Below, one piece after another: positions 29,851 to 37,699 of a stretch of 64,000 nucleotides of DNA. The stretch comes from Bacteroidales bacterium. Lineage in GTDB: Bacteria > Bacteroidota > Bacteroidia > Bacteroidales > UBA3824. Where the stretch lies: assembly GCA_017960885.1 (NCBI GenBank), contig JAGCYI010000100.1:1-64000 (forward strand). The letters run 5' to 3'. The notes beneath the pieces are model-generated. The model was given only the letters and a program-made list of their open reading frames with translations, searched no databases and was not told the origin of the DNA. Made by a program: the position numbers and the translations under genes. How positions within the stretch are numbered: position 1 is the first letter of the stretch; each line of letters begins with the position of its first letter.

Positions 29851-31980
29851 ATGAGCAAACAAGTAAAATTCAACCTTGTATTCAGAGACTTGTGGCAGAG
29901 TTCGGGAAAATATCAGCCACGTGTCGACCAACTTTTAAAAGTTGCACCCGCCATTGTAAAGATGGGCTGCTTCGACCGCGTTGAAACCAACGGCGGTGGT
30001 TTTGAGCAAGTTAACCTCCTTTACGGCGAAAACCCAAACAAATCGGTTCGCGCATGGACCAAACCTTTTCACGAGGCAGGTATCCAAACCGAAATGCTCG
30101 ACCGCGCACTCAACGGAATCCGTATGAACCCGTGCCCGGTAGACGTTCGTAAACTTTTCTACAAAGTAAAATATACTCAGGGAACCGACATCGCACGTAC
30201 ATTCTGCGGATTGAACGACCCGAGAAACATCATTCCTTCTATCGGTTATGCTCACGCGGCTACCCGTCCCGACGGCACTCACATGATTTCGCAGTGCTGC
30301 CTCTGCATCACCGAAAGCCCTATTCACACTGTTGAATACTACGTAAACCTTGCTAAGCAGCTTATCGACGCAGGCGCCGACGAAATCTGTATCAAGGATA
30401 TGGCTGGTATCGGCCGTCCCGTAAAACTCGGCAAAATTGTTAAAGGAATCAAAGATTACAAAGATATAGTTGTAGAATACCACTCTCACGCAGGTCCTGG
30501 TTTTGCTATGGCTTCTGTTTTGGAGGTTTGCAAAGCAGGTTGCGACTACGTTGACGTTGGTATGGAACCCCTCTCTTGGGGAACAGGTCACGTTGACATC
30601 CTTGCCGTTCAGCCTATGTTGAAAGATGCAGGTTTCGACGTTAAAGAAATCAATATGAGCGCTTATATGGAAGTTCGTTCGTTGATTCAAGAGATGATGG
30701 ACGATTTCCTCGGATACTATATTCCTCAGCGCAACCGTTTTATGAACTCGCTCCTTATCGCTCCTGGTCTGCCCGGCGGAATGATGGGTTCGCTTATGAC
30801 CGACCTCGAATCAAACCTCGAATCGGTAAACAAATACAAAGAGAAACACAACTTGCCCAAACTCACACAGGACGAACTTATGATAAAACTCTTCGACGAG
30901 GTTACATACGTTTGGCCTAAGATGGGCTATCCTCCATTGGTAACACCTTTCAGCCAATACGTTAAGAATATGGCTCTTACCAACGTTATGCAGATGGAAA
31001 AAGGCAAAGAGCGTTGGAGCCTTATCGCCGACGATATTTGGGGCATGTTGCTTGGCAAATCAGGTAAACTTCCTGGCGAAGTGGCTCCCGAACTCGTGGC
31101 ACTTGCAAAAGAGCAGGGTCGCGAATTCTTCACCGGTAATCCTCAAGACGAATATCCCGACGCACTCGACTCGTTCCGCAAAGAAATGCAAGACAACGGT
31201 TGGGATTTTGGCGAAGACGACGAAGAGCTCTTTGAGCTTGCAATGCACCCGCAACAATACCGCCTCTACAAATCAGGCGCAGCTAAGAAAGATTTCGAAG
31301 CCGACCTCGCAAAACGTAAAGCTGAAAAAGCAAGCAAAGGTGGTAGCAACGTTCCCGCACTTGCATCGTTCCCGCAGACAGTTACAGTTGACGTTAACGG
31401 TGTTAAATACGCTGTTACAATCGGTGCAAACGACGGCAAATCAGCCGCTCCCGCAGCATCGGCACCTGCCGCAGCCGGAACAGGCAAACCGCTTTCTGCT
31501 CCCCTCGAAGGCAAATTCTACCTTGTTAAAAACTCTGGCGACCCCGCTGTAAAAGTTGGCGACAAGGTTAAGAAAGGTCAGACAGTTTGCTACATTGAGG
31601 CAATGAAAACATTCAACGCTATTTCGGCAGAATGTGACGGTGTAATTACCGAAATTTGCTTCAAATCAGGTGATTCAGTTTCGGAAGACGATGTAATTAT
31701 GCGTATTGCAGCCGAAGGCGAAACCGCTCCCGCAGCTTCTGCCGATGGCGCAGCCGACCTTACATCACCCCTCGAAGGCAAATTCTACCTTGTTAAAAAC
31801 ACCGGCGACCCTGCTGTAAAAGTTGGCGACGCTGTTAAAAAAGGTCAGACAGTTTGCTACATCGAAGCAATGAAAACCTTCAACGCCATAGCCGCCGAAT
31901 CAGACGGTGTAATTGCCGAAATCTGTTTTAAATCAGGTGATTCGGTTTCAGAAGACGATGTTTTAATGAAAATAAAGTAA
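29851..31980 (+). CDS. oadA: Oxaloacetate decarboxylase alpha subunit (carboxyltransferase) with two biotinyl domains
   Basis: A 709-residue protein. The N-terminal carboxyltransferase barrel (about 1-300) has FRDLWQSSGK (metal Asp), GADEICIKDMAG (carbamylated-lysine region) and VEYHSHAGPG (metal His pair); the conserved OadA C-terminal region follows to about 500. An alanine-rich linker leads to two tandem biotin/lipoyl-attachment domains with EAMK at Lys586 and Lys675, 89 residues apart and nearly identical (31501 onward and 31768 onward). Most OadA proteins have one. The enzyme transfers carboxyl from a 2-oxoacid to biotin; the beta subunit then decarboxylates it and exports Na+. Substrate could be oxaloacetate or another acyl compound. 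BirA, needed for biotinylation, is at 50651. Confidence 0.9.
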   Translation: MSKQVKFNLVFRDLWQSSGKYQPRVDQLLKVAPAIVKMGCFDRVETNGGGFEQVNLLYGENPNKSVRAWTKPFHEAGIQTEMLDRALNGIRMNPCPVDVRKLFYKVKYTQGTDIARTFCGLNDPRNIIPSIGYAHAATRPDGTHMISQCCLCITESPIHTVEYYVNLAKQLIDAGADEICIKDMAGIGRPVKLGKIVKGIKDYKDIVVEYHSHAGPGFAMASVLEVCKAGCDYVDVGMEPLSWGTGHVDILAVQPMLKDAGFDVKEINMSAYMEVRSLIQEMMDDFLGYYIPQRNRFMNSLLIAPGLPGGMMGSLMTDLESNLESVNKYKEKHNLPKLTQDELMIKLFDEVTYVWPKMGYPPLVTPFSQYVKNMALTNVMQMEKGKERWSLIADDIWGMLLGKSGKLPGEVAPELVALAKEQGREFFTGNPQDEYPDALDSFRKEMQDNGWDFGEDDEELFELAMHPQQYRLYKSGAAKKDFEADLAKRKAEKASKGGSNVPALASFPQTVTVDVNGVKYAVTIGANDGKSAAPAASAPAAAGTGKPLSAPLEGKFYLVKNSGDPAVKVGDKVKKGQTVCYIEAMKTFNAISAECDGVITEICFKSGDSVSEDDVIMRIAAEGETAPAASADGAADLTSPLEGKFYLVKNTGDPAVKVGDAVKKGQTVCYIEAMKTFNAIAAESDGVIAEICFKSGDSVSEDDVLMKIK
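31501..31977. repeat. Duplicated biotinyl-domain sequence within oadA
   Basis: The segments 31502-31710 and 31769-31977 align over about 209 bases with only scattered, mostly third-position differences, separated by a 58-base Ala-rich linker. This marks a recent in-frame duplication. Confidence 0.9.
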
Positions 31981-33451: not shown

Positions 33452-35209
33452 TTATCGTTTAACTATGCTTACAGTGTAATCTACATTGTTGTTGCTGTCG
33501 TTGTCGGAACGCCACATTTTGTATTCTGTTATTTTGTCGTACGAAATTGAATAATTAACCACGTCAACCTTTTCTTTGTCGGGAACTTCAATTTCGATGT
33601 CTTTCATAAGACCGAGCAGATAGCCGGGTTGTTGTTGCGAATGCCAAGCCAGTGTGTGTCCAAAAATTGTTACGCCAGCGTTTTGGGCATTAGTTATAAA
33701 TGTTTTAACTCGGCTGAAATCGAACTCTCCGCCACCGTTGACACACGATTGGTATTTCATAGCATTGCCAGCCACAACTTCGTCGAAATTCTCTTTAACA
33801 ATTGTTTTGAGCGTAGCATTGCTGCTGAACTCAGAAACGTCGAGAGCGCCGCTAATTTTGAAAATCGGGTGGTTTGAACGTTTGATGTAGCTTTTGAGGG
33901 GCTTTAAGTCGGCAAGGTCGTCGGAGAGCTTTTGTTCAGCAAGACCTTGTGCAAAACCTTTGTAGGCAGCTTTCCTAACGTATCCAGCTTTCCAAATACC
34001 TACGGGTTCGCCGGCTCTCCAGCTTGTATTGTCGGGAGCGTCGGTCATGCACCATTGGCAGAATCCGTATTGCTGCTCAGGAGGTACTATCTCAAAATAT
34101 TTGTTGAGAATAAACTCGTAATAATCAGCCATCTTCTGTAGTTCAGCAGCTGTAACTTGAGATGTTTTGAGCTGTGTGTTGCCACGCATATAGCCCATAT
34201 CGAGTTCCGACACGCGTACAAGTTTGCCAGTGGCAGCCATCAGTTCAAACATTTTTACAATGTGCTCCTCCTTGCTTTTTTGAGTGCCTTCATCATCGTA
34301 ATACGAAATGTGCATCTGAGTTCCGAGACCGTCAATTTTGGTAACTCCGTCAGCTTCCCATTTGTCAACCCAGTAGATAAGGCTTTTGAGCTTCTTGTTG
34401 TCGTCCCAGTCGCTTTCAAGGTTGTAGTCGTTGATAAAGAGTTTCAGTTCGTCGGGGTCGCCTTTGAAGTGCTTTCTTGCGCTGGCTACTGCAGTACGGA
34501 CATAGTCAATGTCGCCCATATAGTCCTGCCAGAAGAAATTGCCCGATTGTACCACCACTTCATCGTCGTTGGGATTGCTTGAGTGTTGCAGAGTGTAGAA
34601 ACCTTCGATACTGCCACCTCCAGAGATAGCCTCGTTTACCACGTCCCAAGATTTAACAAAGCCGTTGGTGGCGGTCATCATTCCTTCAATCCAATGATCC
34701 ATAGCCCAAACAAGAGTGTCGTGTTTCTGTTGTTCGGTAAGGGGAATGGTTTTTCCGCTACCTTTGTGGGTAATGGTTACGCTTTCGATATAGATGTCGC
34801 CCACAAAGTCGCCAGTCTGGAATAGTACATGACCATCGTCGGCGCTGGGTTCAAAAGCCAACTTGTGTTCCTTCATTTCGGTTGTGGCATCGATAGAAAG
34901 ACTGATGGTGTTTTGCCAGTCGCCGATAAGAAACGACAGCTTGGCATCTTTCGAAGCTTTCAACTTAATGGTGATTTCGTACGATTTTCCTTTTTTTACA
35001 CCAATGTTGTCGGCAACCACATATTGCACCTGGTATGCCTGAGTCGACACTTTGTTGTTGTGGATGCAAAGCATCGAAGTGGTCGGTTTTACCTGTTTTT
35101 GTGTGGTGTCAGGTTTGTTGTCGGGGACAACTGTGTCGTCGTTGTCGTCCTTTTTGCAGCCAGATAATCCTATTAATGCTGCAAATGTTAGTAGCAAGAA
35201 TTTTTTCAT
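33452..35209 (-). CDS. Endo-1,4-beta-xylanase, GH10, apparently circularly permuted, lipoprotein
   Basis: A 585-residue outer-surface lipoprotein (MKKFLLLTFAALIGLSGC, Cys18). Residues about 45-150 are a carbohydrate-binding-module-like beta domain. Then comes the second part of a GH10 barrel (about 156-425): LTEQQKHDTLVWAMDHW, WDVVNEAIS with acid/base Glu193, and VRVSELDMGY with nucleophile Glu335, ending WCMTDAPDNTSW...GIWKAGY. The first part of the GH10 barrel follows at the C-terminus (about 446-535): FKISGALDVSEF, GNAMKYQSCVNGGGEFDF and GHTLAWHSQQQPGY. In ordinary GH10 the latter precede the former. The start is the ATG of the lipoprotein signal; an in-frame ATG at 35254 would bury it. 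It should cut xylan; no SusCD pair is adjacent. Confidence 0.8.
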   Translation of the reverse strand: MKKFLLLTFAALIGLSGCKKDDNDDTVVPDNKPDTTQKQVKPTTSMLCIHNNKVSTQAYQVQYVVADNIGVKKGKSYEITIKLKASKDAKLSFLIGDWQNTISLSIDATTEMKEHKLAFEPSADDGHVLFQTGDFVGDIYIESVTITHKGSGKTIPLTEQQKHDTLVWAMDHWIEGMMTATNGFVKSWDVVNEAISGGGSIEGFYTLQHSSNPNDDEVVVQSGNFFWQDYMGDIDYVRTAVASARKHFKGDPDELKLFINDYNLESDWDDNKKLKSLIYWVDKWEADGVTKIDGLGTQMHISYYDDEGTQKSKEEHIVKMFELMAATGKLVRVSELDMGYMRGNTQLKTSQVTAAELQKMADYYEFILNKYFEIVPPEQQYGFCQWCMTDAPDNTSWRAGEPVGIWKAGYVRKAAYKGFAQGLAEQKLSDDLADLKPLKSYIKRSNHPIFKISGALDVSEFSSNATLKTIVKENFDEVVAGNAMKYQSCVNGGGEFDFSRVKTFITNAQNAGVTIFGHTLAWHSQQQPGYLLGLMKDIEIEVPDKEKVDVVNYSISYDKITEYKMWRSDNDSNNNVDYTVSIVKR

Positions 35210-35264
35210 GATATTGAATTTAAATATTAATAATAAATGGTTGAGTATGGTCAACTAAAAGATG

Positions 35265-35777
35265 TTACTTCTTAGTAATCAAAAACTGCGATAGAATTAC
35301 AAATAAGATAGTTACCGCAGAAGTGAAGAATACTTTGGCTGCTATTTGAGTGAATGAGAAAAAGCCTATTGAATCAATTAAGAAGAAAAAAAGATGGTGG
35401 GCTAAAACCAATGGAACGCAGTAGCGGACGAACCATTGCATACCCATATAAGAAGCGTAAGGATAGAGACCTGACTCATAGCCGTCGCGAGGTGCGAGCA
35501 TATTGAGCATCATGGGACGTAGAAACGCCATAAATACCGAAGCTGCCGTGTTGAGTCCAGGTGTGTCGGCAAACATATCCACAGTGTAGCCCAGCACAAA
35601 GGCAAAGAAGAGTTGCAGCCAATTAGGAACCTCAAACGGCACCATAAGTACAAACAAGACATAGAACATAGGCGTAATACCCAAAGAGCTGATTTTTATA
35701 TTGTTGAAAATCAGCACCTGCAATATTACCAATAGTAAATATTGACCTAAAACTTTTAGATAACCCCTGAGATCCAT
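35265..35777 (-). CDS. mreD: Rod shape-determining protein MreD
   Basis: A 170-residue membrane protein with about five hydrophobic helices, including QYLLLVILQVLIFNNIKI, the MFYVLFVLMVPFEVPNWLQL segment and FVLGYTVDMFADTPGLNTAAS, the conserved MreD aspartate motif. It is part of the elongasome that organises lateral wall synthesis. It starts one base from the mreC stop (35777). In many Bacteroidetes, penicillin-binding protein 2 and rodA follow; here the next gene is the xylanase. Confidence 0.9.
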   Translation of the reverse strand: MDLRGYLKVLGQYLLLVILQVLIFNNIKISSLGITPMFYVLFVLMVPFEVPNWLQLFFAFVLGYTVDMFADTPGLNTAASVFMAFLRPMMLNMLAPRDGYESGLYPYASYMGMQWFVRYCVPLVLAHHLFFFLIDSIGFFSFTQIAAKVFFTSAVTILFVILSQFLITKK

Positions 35778-36613
35778 TATTGTACAAATTTAGATGCTTG
35801 TTCTTCTAACTGATATTGCTCTTCCTGCATGAGGTTTTCAATTACAAATACGCTTGAGAGGCATTTAAGGTCGGTAGTGAATTTAACCTTTATGCTGTAA
35901 AAGTTGTCGTCGCTGTTTCGCACAAACGATTCGATAACCGCAACAGGAATGCCTGGGGGAAAGATGGCAGAGTAGCCGCTTGTAACTACTGTGTCGCCAA
36001 CTTGAAGTGTCACGTGGTTTGGAATTTCATGAAGAATGCCGGTGTGGTAGTCTTCGCCGCTCCAGTTTAGTTTGCCGTAAAAGTTGCTATTCTTAAGTCC
36101 GGCACTGATGCCTACCTTGTTGTTTAGCAGAGAAATGGCGAGCGAAAAGTGTTCTGATGTGTTTACTACTATTCCTACTGCACCTGAAGCCGACACCACA
36201 GCCATGTCGGGACGGACGCCTTGCGCCTCGCCTACGTCCAAGGTCATAAAGTTGTTTTGGCTGTTGATTGAGTTTTTAAGTACCGATGCTGTGATAAAGC
36301 GGTATTTGAGTTTGCCTAATGAGTCGGTCTGGTTTCTAAACTGGGCAGTGTCGGCAACGTAAAAATTGTTGCTCTTCCGGCGAAGATTCGATAGCTGCTC
36401 CATAAGCATAGCGTTCTCCTCGCGAAGGTTGAAGTAACTTACGTATGTCCAAGCAAGGTCGTAAATATTGCCCGTAACAAAATTGGCGGAGGTGCAGAAA
36501 ACGCTGTTTCGTTTTGCATCGCCACCTATGGCCAATATGAGAGCTATCACCTCCAATACAATAAATATAATTTGGAAGTGAATCTTTTTTAGAAACCTTA
36601 ACAGACTATCCAT
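35777..36613 (-). CDS. mreC: Rod shape-determining protein MreC
   Basis: A 278-residue bitopic protein: an N-terminal membrane helix (FQIIFIVLEVIALILAIG), a coiled coil (about 60-100) and a periplasmic beta domain with GVRPDMAVVSASGAVGIVV and GDTVVTSGYSAIFPPGIPVA, both conserved in MreC. It links MreB filaments to periplasmic wall synthases. It follows mreB after a 63-base gap holding a strong stem-loop (36634-36669) and is coupled to mreD. Confidence 0.95.
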   Translation of the reverse strand: MDSLLRFLKKIHFQIIFIVLEVIALILAIGGDAKRNSVFCTSANFVTGNIYDLAWTYVSYFNLREENAMLMEQLSNLRRKSNNFYVADTAQFRNQTDSLGKLKYRFITASVLKNSINSQNNFMTLDVGEAQGVRPDMAVVSASGAVGIVVNTSEHFSLAISLLNNKVGISAGLKNSNFYGKLNWSGEDYHTGILHEIPNHVTLQVGDTVVTSGYSAIFPPGIPVAVIESFVRNSDDNFYSIKVKFTTDLKCLSSVFVIENLMQEEQYQLEEQASKFVQ

Positions 36614-36633
36614 AACTATAGATATTAGAGTTT

Positions 36634-36669
36634 CGACCTAAACCACATTAGCGATTGTGGTTTAGGTCG
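36634..36669 (-). promoter_or_regulatory. 14-bp perfect stem-loop between mreB and mreC
   Basis: CGACCTAAACCACA (36634-36647) is the exact complement of TGTGGTTTAGGTCG (36656-36669), around an 8-base loop. No T-run follows on the minus strand. It may be a partial terminator, RNA-processing or RNA-stability element. Confidence 0.65.
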
Positions 36670-36676
36670 TACTCCG

Positions 36677-37699
36677 CTATTTAAGCAAGAATGGGAATTT
36701 GTCAACGTTTTTCAAAGCGATGCCAGTACCGCGGGCAACAGCGTGCAGCGGGTCTTCCGATACTTTTACGGGAAGGTTGGTCTTCTCCGACAGACGCTTG
36801 TCTAATCCGCGAAGCAATGCTCCGCCACCTGTGAGGTGGATGCCGTTTTTGAAAATATCGGCATAAAGTTCGGGCGGTGTCTGCTCCAAAACGTTGAGGA
36901 TAGCCGCTTCGATTTTGCATATCGATTTGTCGAGACAGTGTGCAATCTCTTGATACGAAATAGGAATCTCCACGGGCAATGCGGTCATCTGGTGAGGTCC
37001 GCGTACCATATAGTCGGCTGGCGGGTCTTCAAGGTCGGTGATGGCTGAGCCAACGTTGATCTTGATGGCTTCGGCTGTACGGTCGAACACCTTGATATTA
37101 TGTTGATGACGCATGTATTCCATGATGTCTTCGGTGAAGTCGTCGCCCGCAATACGGATACTGCGGTTGCAGACAATACCTCCGAGTGAGATTACAGCGA
37201 TTTCGGTTGTACCACCGCCTATATCTACTACCATGTTTCCTTCTGGTGCCTCTACGTCGATACCGATACCGAGAGCTGCAGCCATAGGTTCGAAAATCAT
37301 CCAAACCTCGCGTGCTCCGGCGTGCTCGGCGCTGTCGCGAACGGCGCGGCGTTCTACCTCGGTGCTACCAGAGGGGATACCTACTACGATTTTGATAGAT
37401 GGGTTGAAAAACAACCTGCGGGTGTTGCCCATCTTGATCATACCGCGGATCATCATCTCGGCTGCCTTAAAGTCGGCAATCACACCATCGCGAAGGGGAC
37501 GGATTGTGCGGATGTTCTCATGCGTTTTACCGTGCATGAGCTGCGCTTTCATACCTATGGCGATTGTCTTTTCCGAGATATGGTCGATTGCTACGATGGA
37601 CGGCTCGTCAACCACGATTTTGTCGTGCATGATGATGACCGTGTTGGCCGTGCCAAGGTCCATCGCCAATTCCTGTGTAAAGAATGAAAATAATCCCAT
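36677..37699 (-). CDS. mreB: Rod shape-determining actin homologue MreB
   Basis: A 340-residue bacterial actin. The phosphate loops DLGTANT and DIGGGTTEIAVISLGG, the adenosine motif LTGGGALLRGLDKRL and MIFEPMAAALGIGI are conserved, and the N-terminus starts with the hydrophobic MGLFSFFTQE membrane-binding segment. It forms membrane-bound filaments that guide wall synthesis in rod-shaped cells. It follows purH after 60 bases, a linkage common in Bacteroidetes, and heads the mreBCD set. Confidence 0.97.
   Translation of the reverse strand: MGLFSFFTQELAMDLGTANTVIIMHDKIVVDEPSIVAIDHISEKTIAIGMKAQLMHGKTHENIRTIRPLRDGVIADFKAAEMMIRGMIKMGNTRRLFFNPSIKIVVGIPSGSTEVERRAVRDSAEHAGAREVWMIFEPMAAALGIGIDVEAPEGNMVVDIGGGTTEIAVISLGGIVCNRSIRIAGDDFTEDIMEYMRHQHNIKVFDRTAEAIKINVGSAITDLEDPPADYMVRGPHQMTALPVEIPISYQEIAHCLDKSICKIEAAILNVLEQTPPELYADIFKNGIHLTGGGALLRGLDKRLSEKTNLPVKVSEDPLHAVARGTGIALKNVDKFPFLLK

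Follow-up and report, generated by a model that had tools for sequence, protein, structure and literature searches.

A GH10 xylanase gene with its barrel halves in permuted order in a Bacteroidales bacterium: a probable natural circular permutant

The window analysed here is a stretch of 64,000 nucleotides (contig JAGCYI010000100.1, assembly GCA_017960885.1) from a Bacteroidales MAG that is 84.7% complete and 5.5% contaminated; most of the genomes compared with it are also MAGs. The minus strand carries an open reading frame at 33452-35209, with its ATG at 35209 and its stop codon at 33452-33454, which encodes 585 amino acids and, as the initial annotation had it, runs without an internal stop. 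The protein matches the GH10 profile PF00331 at 162.8 bits, against a curated cut-off of 22.1, in two pieces that are swapped: profile positions 96-309 lie at residues 161-420, and positions 10-92 lie C-terminal of that. The linear GH10 order from β1 to β8 is broken, with β4-β8 coming ahead of β1-β3. The parts of the gene, from the whole to the pieces in chain order, are as follows.

33452..35209, minus strand: circularly permuted GH10 xylanase gene, 585 amino acids plus stop (open reading frame, permuted homologues, dN/dS).
35156..35209, minus strand: lipoprotein signal peptide with lipobox LSGC and Cys18, followed by KKDDNDD (sequence).
35078..35155, minus strand: low-complexity linker, residues 19-44 (sequence; low pLDDT).
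34742..35077, minus strand: residues 45-156, the present N-terminal domain, which make up the C-terminal two thirds of the CBM (matches 4mgs chain residues 33-148; abuts the other CBM piece in unpermuted orthologues).
33938..34741, minus strand: GH10 second half, α3-β4 to α8, residues 157-424, with E193 and E335 (PF00331 profile 96-309; VIA-align).
33899..33937, minus strand: new junction linker, residues 425-437, from the old barrel C-terminus to the old N-terminus (length in permutants; pLDDT).
33614..33898, minus strand: GH10 first half, β1-β3, residues 438-532, with N482, K485, H518, W522 and Q525 (Pfam match; model).
33455..33613, minus strand: residues 533-585, the present C-terminus, which make up the N-terminal third of the same CBM (rejoined CBM against 4mgs; kept in permuted homologues; dN/dS).

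The Pfam LPAM_1 match to the signal peptide is weak (10.2 bits, under the cut-off of 20), and the KKDDNDD stretch after Cys18 resembles the Bacteroidetes surface-export signal. A scan for promoters and terminators gave no signal above chance. The motif WDVVNE lies at residues 188-193 (E193), SELDMG at 334-339 (E335), GNAMK at 481-485 and GHTLAWHSQ at 517-525. The active-site and substrate-contact residues are all present (E193, E335, K485, H518, W522, Q525, N192, Q298, H300, W386 and W397), and the active-site residues are retained in the permuted relatives described below.

The initial annotation had placed the half with the acid/base and nucleophile ahead of the half with GHTLAWHSQ, and had read the gene as a naturally permuted form of a module-inserted Bacteroidetes GH10. 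The motif positions and the swapped PF00331 pieces bear out this order, as does a scan in which the rotated window protein was aligned locally to seven unpermuted orthologues. The best rotation fell at residue 423-437 in all seven, and the local alignment score rose by 27-32%. Together with the orthologue alignment, the scan shows that the old termini are fused, that the new termini lie elsewhere and that no segment is duplicated. No intact N-terminal half of GH10 is present before residue 150. The permutant reading is upheld, the parent type being a Xyn10C-like GH10 with an inserted CBM, and the active-site residues are intact.

The position of the new termini differs from the one first proposed. 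They had been put at the insertion point of the module, with the C-terminal ~50 residues as the start of another module; the orthologue alignment and the comparison with 4mgs place them within the inserted CBM, where one strand turns into the next (a β-hairpin), and make the C-terminal residues the second piece of the same CBM. In the unpermuted orthologues G017, G011, G008, G003 and G006 the order is GHn-CBMn-CBMc-GHc, and the alignment is practically gapless at the split point: where G011 reads ...DYSIDLSNK|MLHIKNNK..., the window protein ends in ...DYTVSIVKR and has ...SMLCIHNNK... in its N-terminal piece. When the two pieces are rejoined in the old order they align with residues 4-148 of the 150 in the 4mgs chain (83.1 bits, E 1.7e-22), whereas in the native order the score is 68.7 bits and the N-terminal piece alone is matched. 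The Pfam family CBM_4_9 gives 18 bits in the native order and 22.3 bits rejoined, both under its cut-off of 25.9. Both 4mgs and 4qpw are deposited as (putative) GH10 proteins, and 4mgs is the CBM of a Bacteroides intestinalis enzyme. The end-to-end match of the rejoined pieces argues for one CBM common to both termini, interrupted by the barrel. The N-terminal binding-like domain of the initial annotation is therefore incomplete, being only one piece of a CBM split over both termini. With the new termini inside the CBM instead of at the point where it is inserted in GH10, host and guest have changed places: a CBM in a barrel would have become a barrel in a CBM. The CBM of the window protein borders the same two elements as in Xyn10C-like enzymes, β3 and α3, but is split over both termini instead of lying between them.

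The permuted order recurs. It was found complete in four further species of the genus, at 96% (G002), 64% (G014), 63% (G005) and 60% (G010) identity, and a sixth species, G007, has a partial permuted copy broken at a contig edge. The sources of the permutants include RUG (a 298-kb contig) and yak-rumen MAGs; G002 is Tb.RUG.368, which is 99% complete, and G014 is from yak rumen. The permuted order is thus confirmed. Searches of 393 order-level and 395 class-level genomes showed no permutant beyond the genus. Among 17 loci from a contig scan, which reaches close relatives only, just two genus members were permuted. Plasmids yielded no close relative, only four weak matches at 26-36% identity, none covering 80%, and viral contigs yielded no close relative either.

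Several members of the genus have a xylan locus that holds, in turn, a TonB receptor, susD, a susE-like lipoprotein, GH10 slot 1, GH10 slot 2, an esterase/GH5-like gene and DUF6057. Among the slot-2 genes, those of G005 and G014 are permuted and those of G008, G003 and G006 are not, so that unpermuted orthologues sit at loci matching those of the permutants in sister species. The window copy, unlike those of G005 and G014, lies outside any xylan locus and is not downstream of susC-susD-susE-like genes; the SusD of G005 as query found no match in the window genome or in the 99%-complete G002. In both of these genomes the permuted gene is convergent to oadB and lies just downstream of mreBCD; the window copy sits between mreD and oadB.

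Both GH10 halves of the permutants group with the slot-2-type genes of the xylan locus. On the whole-barrel tree, however, the permutants are not one clade but stand at three separate places, which raises the question of whether the same CBM hairpin was opened several times, independently, in different species of the genus. The AU test of a single permutant clade gave a divided answer, with rejection for GHn (8e-5) and the first part of GHc (3e-4) but not for the CBM (p-AU 0.43) or the last part of GHc (0.50). All permutants have the same break point, a junction of near-identical length and common junction residues, and none was seen outside the genus. The junction linker, counted from FAQGLA to the next helix, is 14 residues in five of the six permutants and one longer in G007. 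Moreover, four sites split the permutants from the unpermuted genes: V583 lies at the new C-terminus, and L368, F383 and Q421 precede the junction. No other of the 1287 label sets reaches four, the next highest count being three, although the comparison is small, with four sites and with one of the five permutant rows partial. Several origins are on this evidence unlikely. The common junction linker, the diagnostic residues and the segment-wise AU tests point instead to a single origin of the permuted junction in the genus as the most likely history, with later recombination between the interior of the gene and unpermuted orthologues.

A somewhat less probable alternative concerns the parents of the permuted gene. 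In several genomes slot 1 and slot 2 hold their GH10 genes side by side in the same orientation, and the 3' half of slot 1 could have been fused to the 5' half of slot 2, in place of a duplication of one gene. The trees disfavour such a fusion: the permutants lie within the slot-2 clade and apart from slot 1 in the concatenated tree (100/99), and the GHn tree likewise places them in the slot-2 group (92/99), while the GHc tree is poorly resolved. For a gene of single slot-2 origin, the route first suggested, tandem duplication followed by truncation with loss of the outer halves, is compatible with the data and is the probable one; no duplication intermediate was seen.

Structure prediction with AF2 gave, for the permuted barrel alone (384 amino acids), a pLDDT of 89 and a pTM of 0.91, with the elements in the expected permuted order, and the chain is predicted to close into one (β/α)8 barrel. 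For the full protein the values were 81.5 and 0.72, and strands were predicted in both terminal CBM pieces. Residues 1-38 are disordered in the model (pLDDT <50). The junction linker, residues 425-437, has a pLDDT of ~95 and the first half of GH10 (β1-β3) is mostly >80, while residues 531-585, where the CBM pieces are joined across the termini, are moderate at 55-82 across 10-residue blocks. VIA-align against GH10 structures gave Z scores of 16-18 with coverage of β4-β8 only. Indeed, in searches of the PDB with Foldseek and VIA-align, both order-dependent, β4-β8 alone was aligned and β1-β3 had no positive match, and that sequential aligners stop at β4-β8 is what is expected of a permutant. These searches showed no permuted GH10 structure in the PDB, although sequential aligners would not rank one specially. 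Completion of the barrel by domain swapping between two chains is very improbable: monomer runs leave dimers possible, but closure of a single chain is predicted, with a junction pLDDT of ~95, and the 13-residue linker joins elements that are expected to be adjacent in a TIM barrel.

The dN/dS value against G002 is 0.126 overall and 0.02-0.19 across four segments, with 0.02 for GHn and 0.07 for the C-terminal CBM piece (residues 533-585). An assembly artefact or a decaying gene, which the incomplete and contaminated MAG and the broken copy of G007 might suggest, can hardly be credited, since the same order stands at 60-96% identity in separate assemblies and the gene is under purifying selection; assembly error is ruled out on these grounds.

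Given the order, the conservation, the purifying selection, the predicted closure of the barrel and the retained active-site residues, the gene product is very probably a functional, surface-anchored endo-xylanase, derived by natural circular permutation, of single origin, from a slot-2-type Xyn10C-like GH10. From an ancestral order of GH10 β1-3, CBM and GH10 β4-8, a short conserved linker would have come to join the old barrel termini, and the chain would have been re-opened at the hairpin inside the CBM. The two CBM pieces would then fold as one β-sandwich, into which the barrel is inserted. By homology, xylan would be cleaved by the normal GH10 double-displacement mechanism, and the surface xylanase would make the first cuts in xylan while the CBM holds the substrate. 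The lipid anchor would have shifted from the barrel N-terminus to the CBM, and because the tether has moved, the orientation at the membrane should change, with the active site facing the cell surface differently. A fuller account, in which the nested domains swapped host and guest recently and in place, the anchor left the back of the barrel for the CBM and altered the surface orientation, and permuted and unpermuted alleles are still recombining through their common interior, is put forward tentatively, at slightly short of even odds.

Much of this is already known from other enzymes, namely the GH10 fold, the inserted CBM and the PUL context. Xyn10C-like GH10 enzymes (Pm25, BACINT_04215 of B. 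intestinalis, BACOVA_04390) have a CBM4 inserted between β3 and α3, and for Pm25 it has been shown that the catalytic module works independently of the CBMs (PMC7848910). The window gene shares with them the GH10 type, the insertion site, a CBM matching 4mgs and 4qpw and the lipoprotein character, and several of its relatives lie in susC-susD-susE-like xylan loci; it differs in its permuted chain, in the insertion of the barrel in the CBM, in the anchor on the CBM and in its position outside a xylan locus. The closest natural precedent is that of the GH70 glucansucrases, in which the catalytic (β/α)8 barrel is circularly permuted relative to GH13/GH77 and domains are likewise made of two discontinuous segments (PMC5388325). 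GH70 is another family, however, and was permuted between long-diverged families, whereas here the change lies within a single genus, whose members also have unpermuted orthologues at matching loci. A recent survey treats domain nesting as separate from circular permutation (PMC13114784); the permutation in the window also inverts the nesting.

Natural permutation of a carbohydrate-binding module was reportedly described for CBM36/CBM60 by Montanier in 2010, a work cited in PMC4725902. That is a permuted single module, unlike the CBM here, the two pieces of which have an entire catalytic domain between them. For the Bacillus circulans xylanase, engineered permutants were reportedly made by Reitinger in 2010, a work cited in PMC6719137; they too are xylanases with a re-opened chain, but engineered and not natural. 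The Bacillus circulans xylanase is a GH11 enzyme. The literature searched, which takes in few subscription papers, showed no natural GH10 permutant, in agreement with the initial annotation, nor any host-guest inversion of GH10 and CBM.

In a group of rumen bacteria, then, a common xylan-cutting enzyme has been found in rearranged form. As a rule, natural circular permutants are inferred by comparing families that diverged long ago. With permuted and unpermuted orthologues at matching loci in sister species, the route, the fitness effect and the folding consequences can be compared nearly like with like, and enzyme engineers gain a naturally tested GH10 cut site and linker. Since sequential searches by fold or domain order catch such proteins only in part, others may have escaped notice.

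Several further features of these loci were observed. A gap of 55 bp separates mreB-mreC-mreD from the start of the window xylanase, which follows them on the same strand (33452-37699, minus) and may be read together with these cell-shape genes; G002 (L053) shows the same arrangement. In G013 an unpermuted GH10 adjoins oadB at the end of its xylan locus (3542-5494 of L059) and has a different, non-CBM4-like insert. Over the first part of GHc, no other unpermuted gene is closer to the window gene than this one (LQHSSNPN signature), a likeness that suggests recombination. Related GH10 barrels without any CBM insert (436 and 476 amino acids) lie at 7701-9011 of L061 (G009) and 4884-6314 of L044. 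Unrelated genes, one with ATPase-like motifs, stand between tandem GH10 genes at 12100-13452 of L055 (G011) and 9112-12338 of L058 (G006), and so this interval takes insertions. In G010 (L051, 9125-12376) the usual slot-1 GH10 upstream of the permuted gene is replaced by one for a GH98-like protein of 1083 amino acids that carries a secretion tail. Finally, the window encodes at 29851-31980 (plus strand) an OadA-like oxaloacetate decarboxylase alpha subunit with C-terminal tandem, near-identical biotin-carrier repeats (VCYIEAMKTFNAI, twice).
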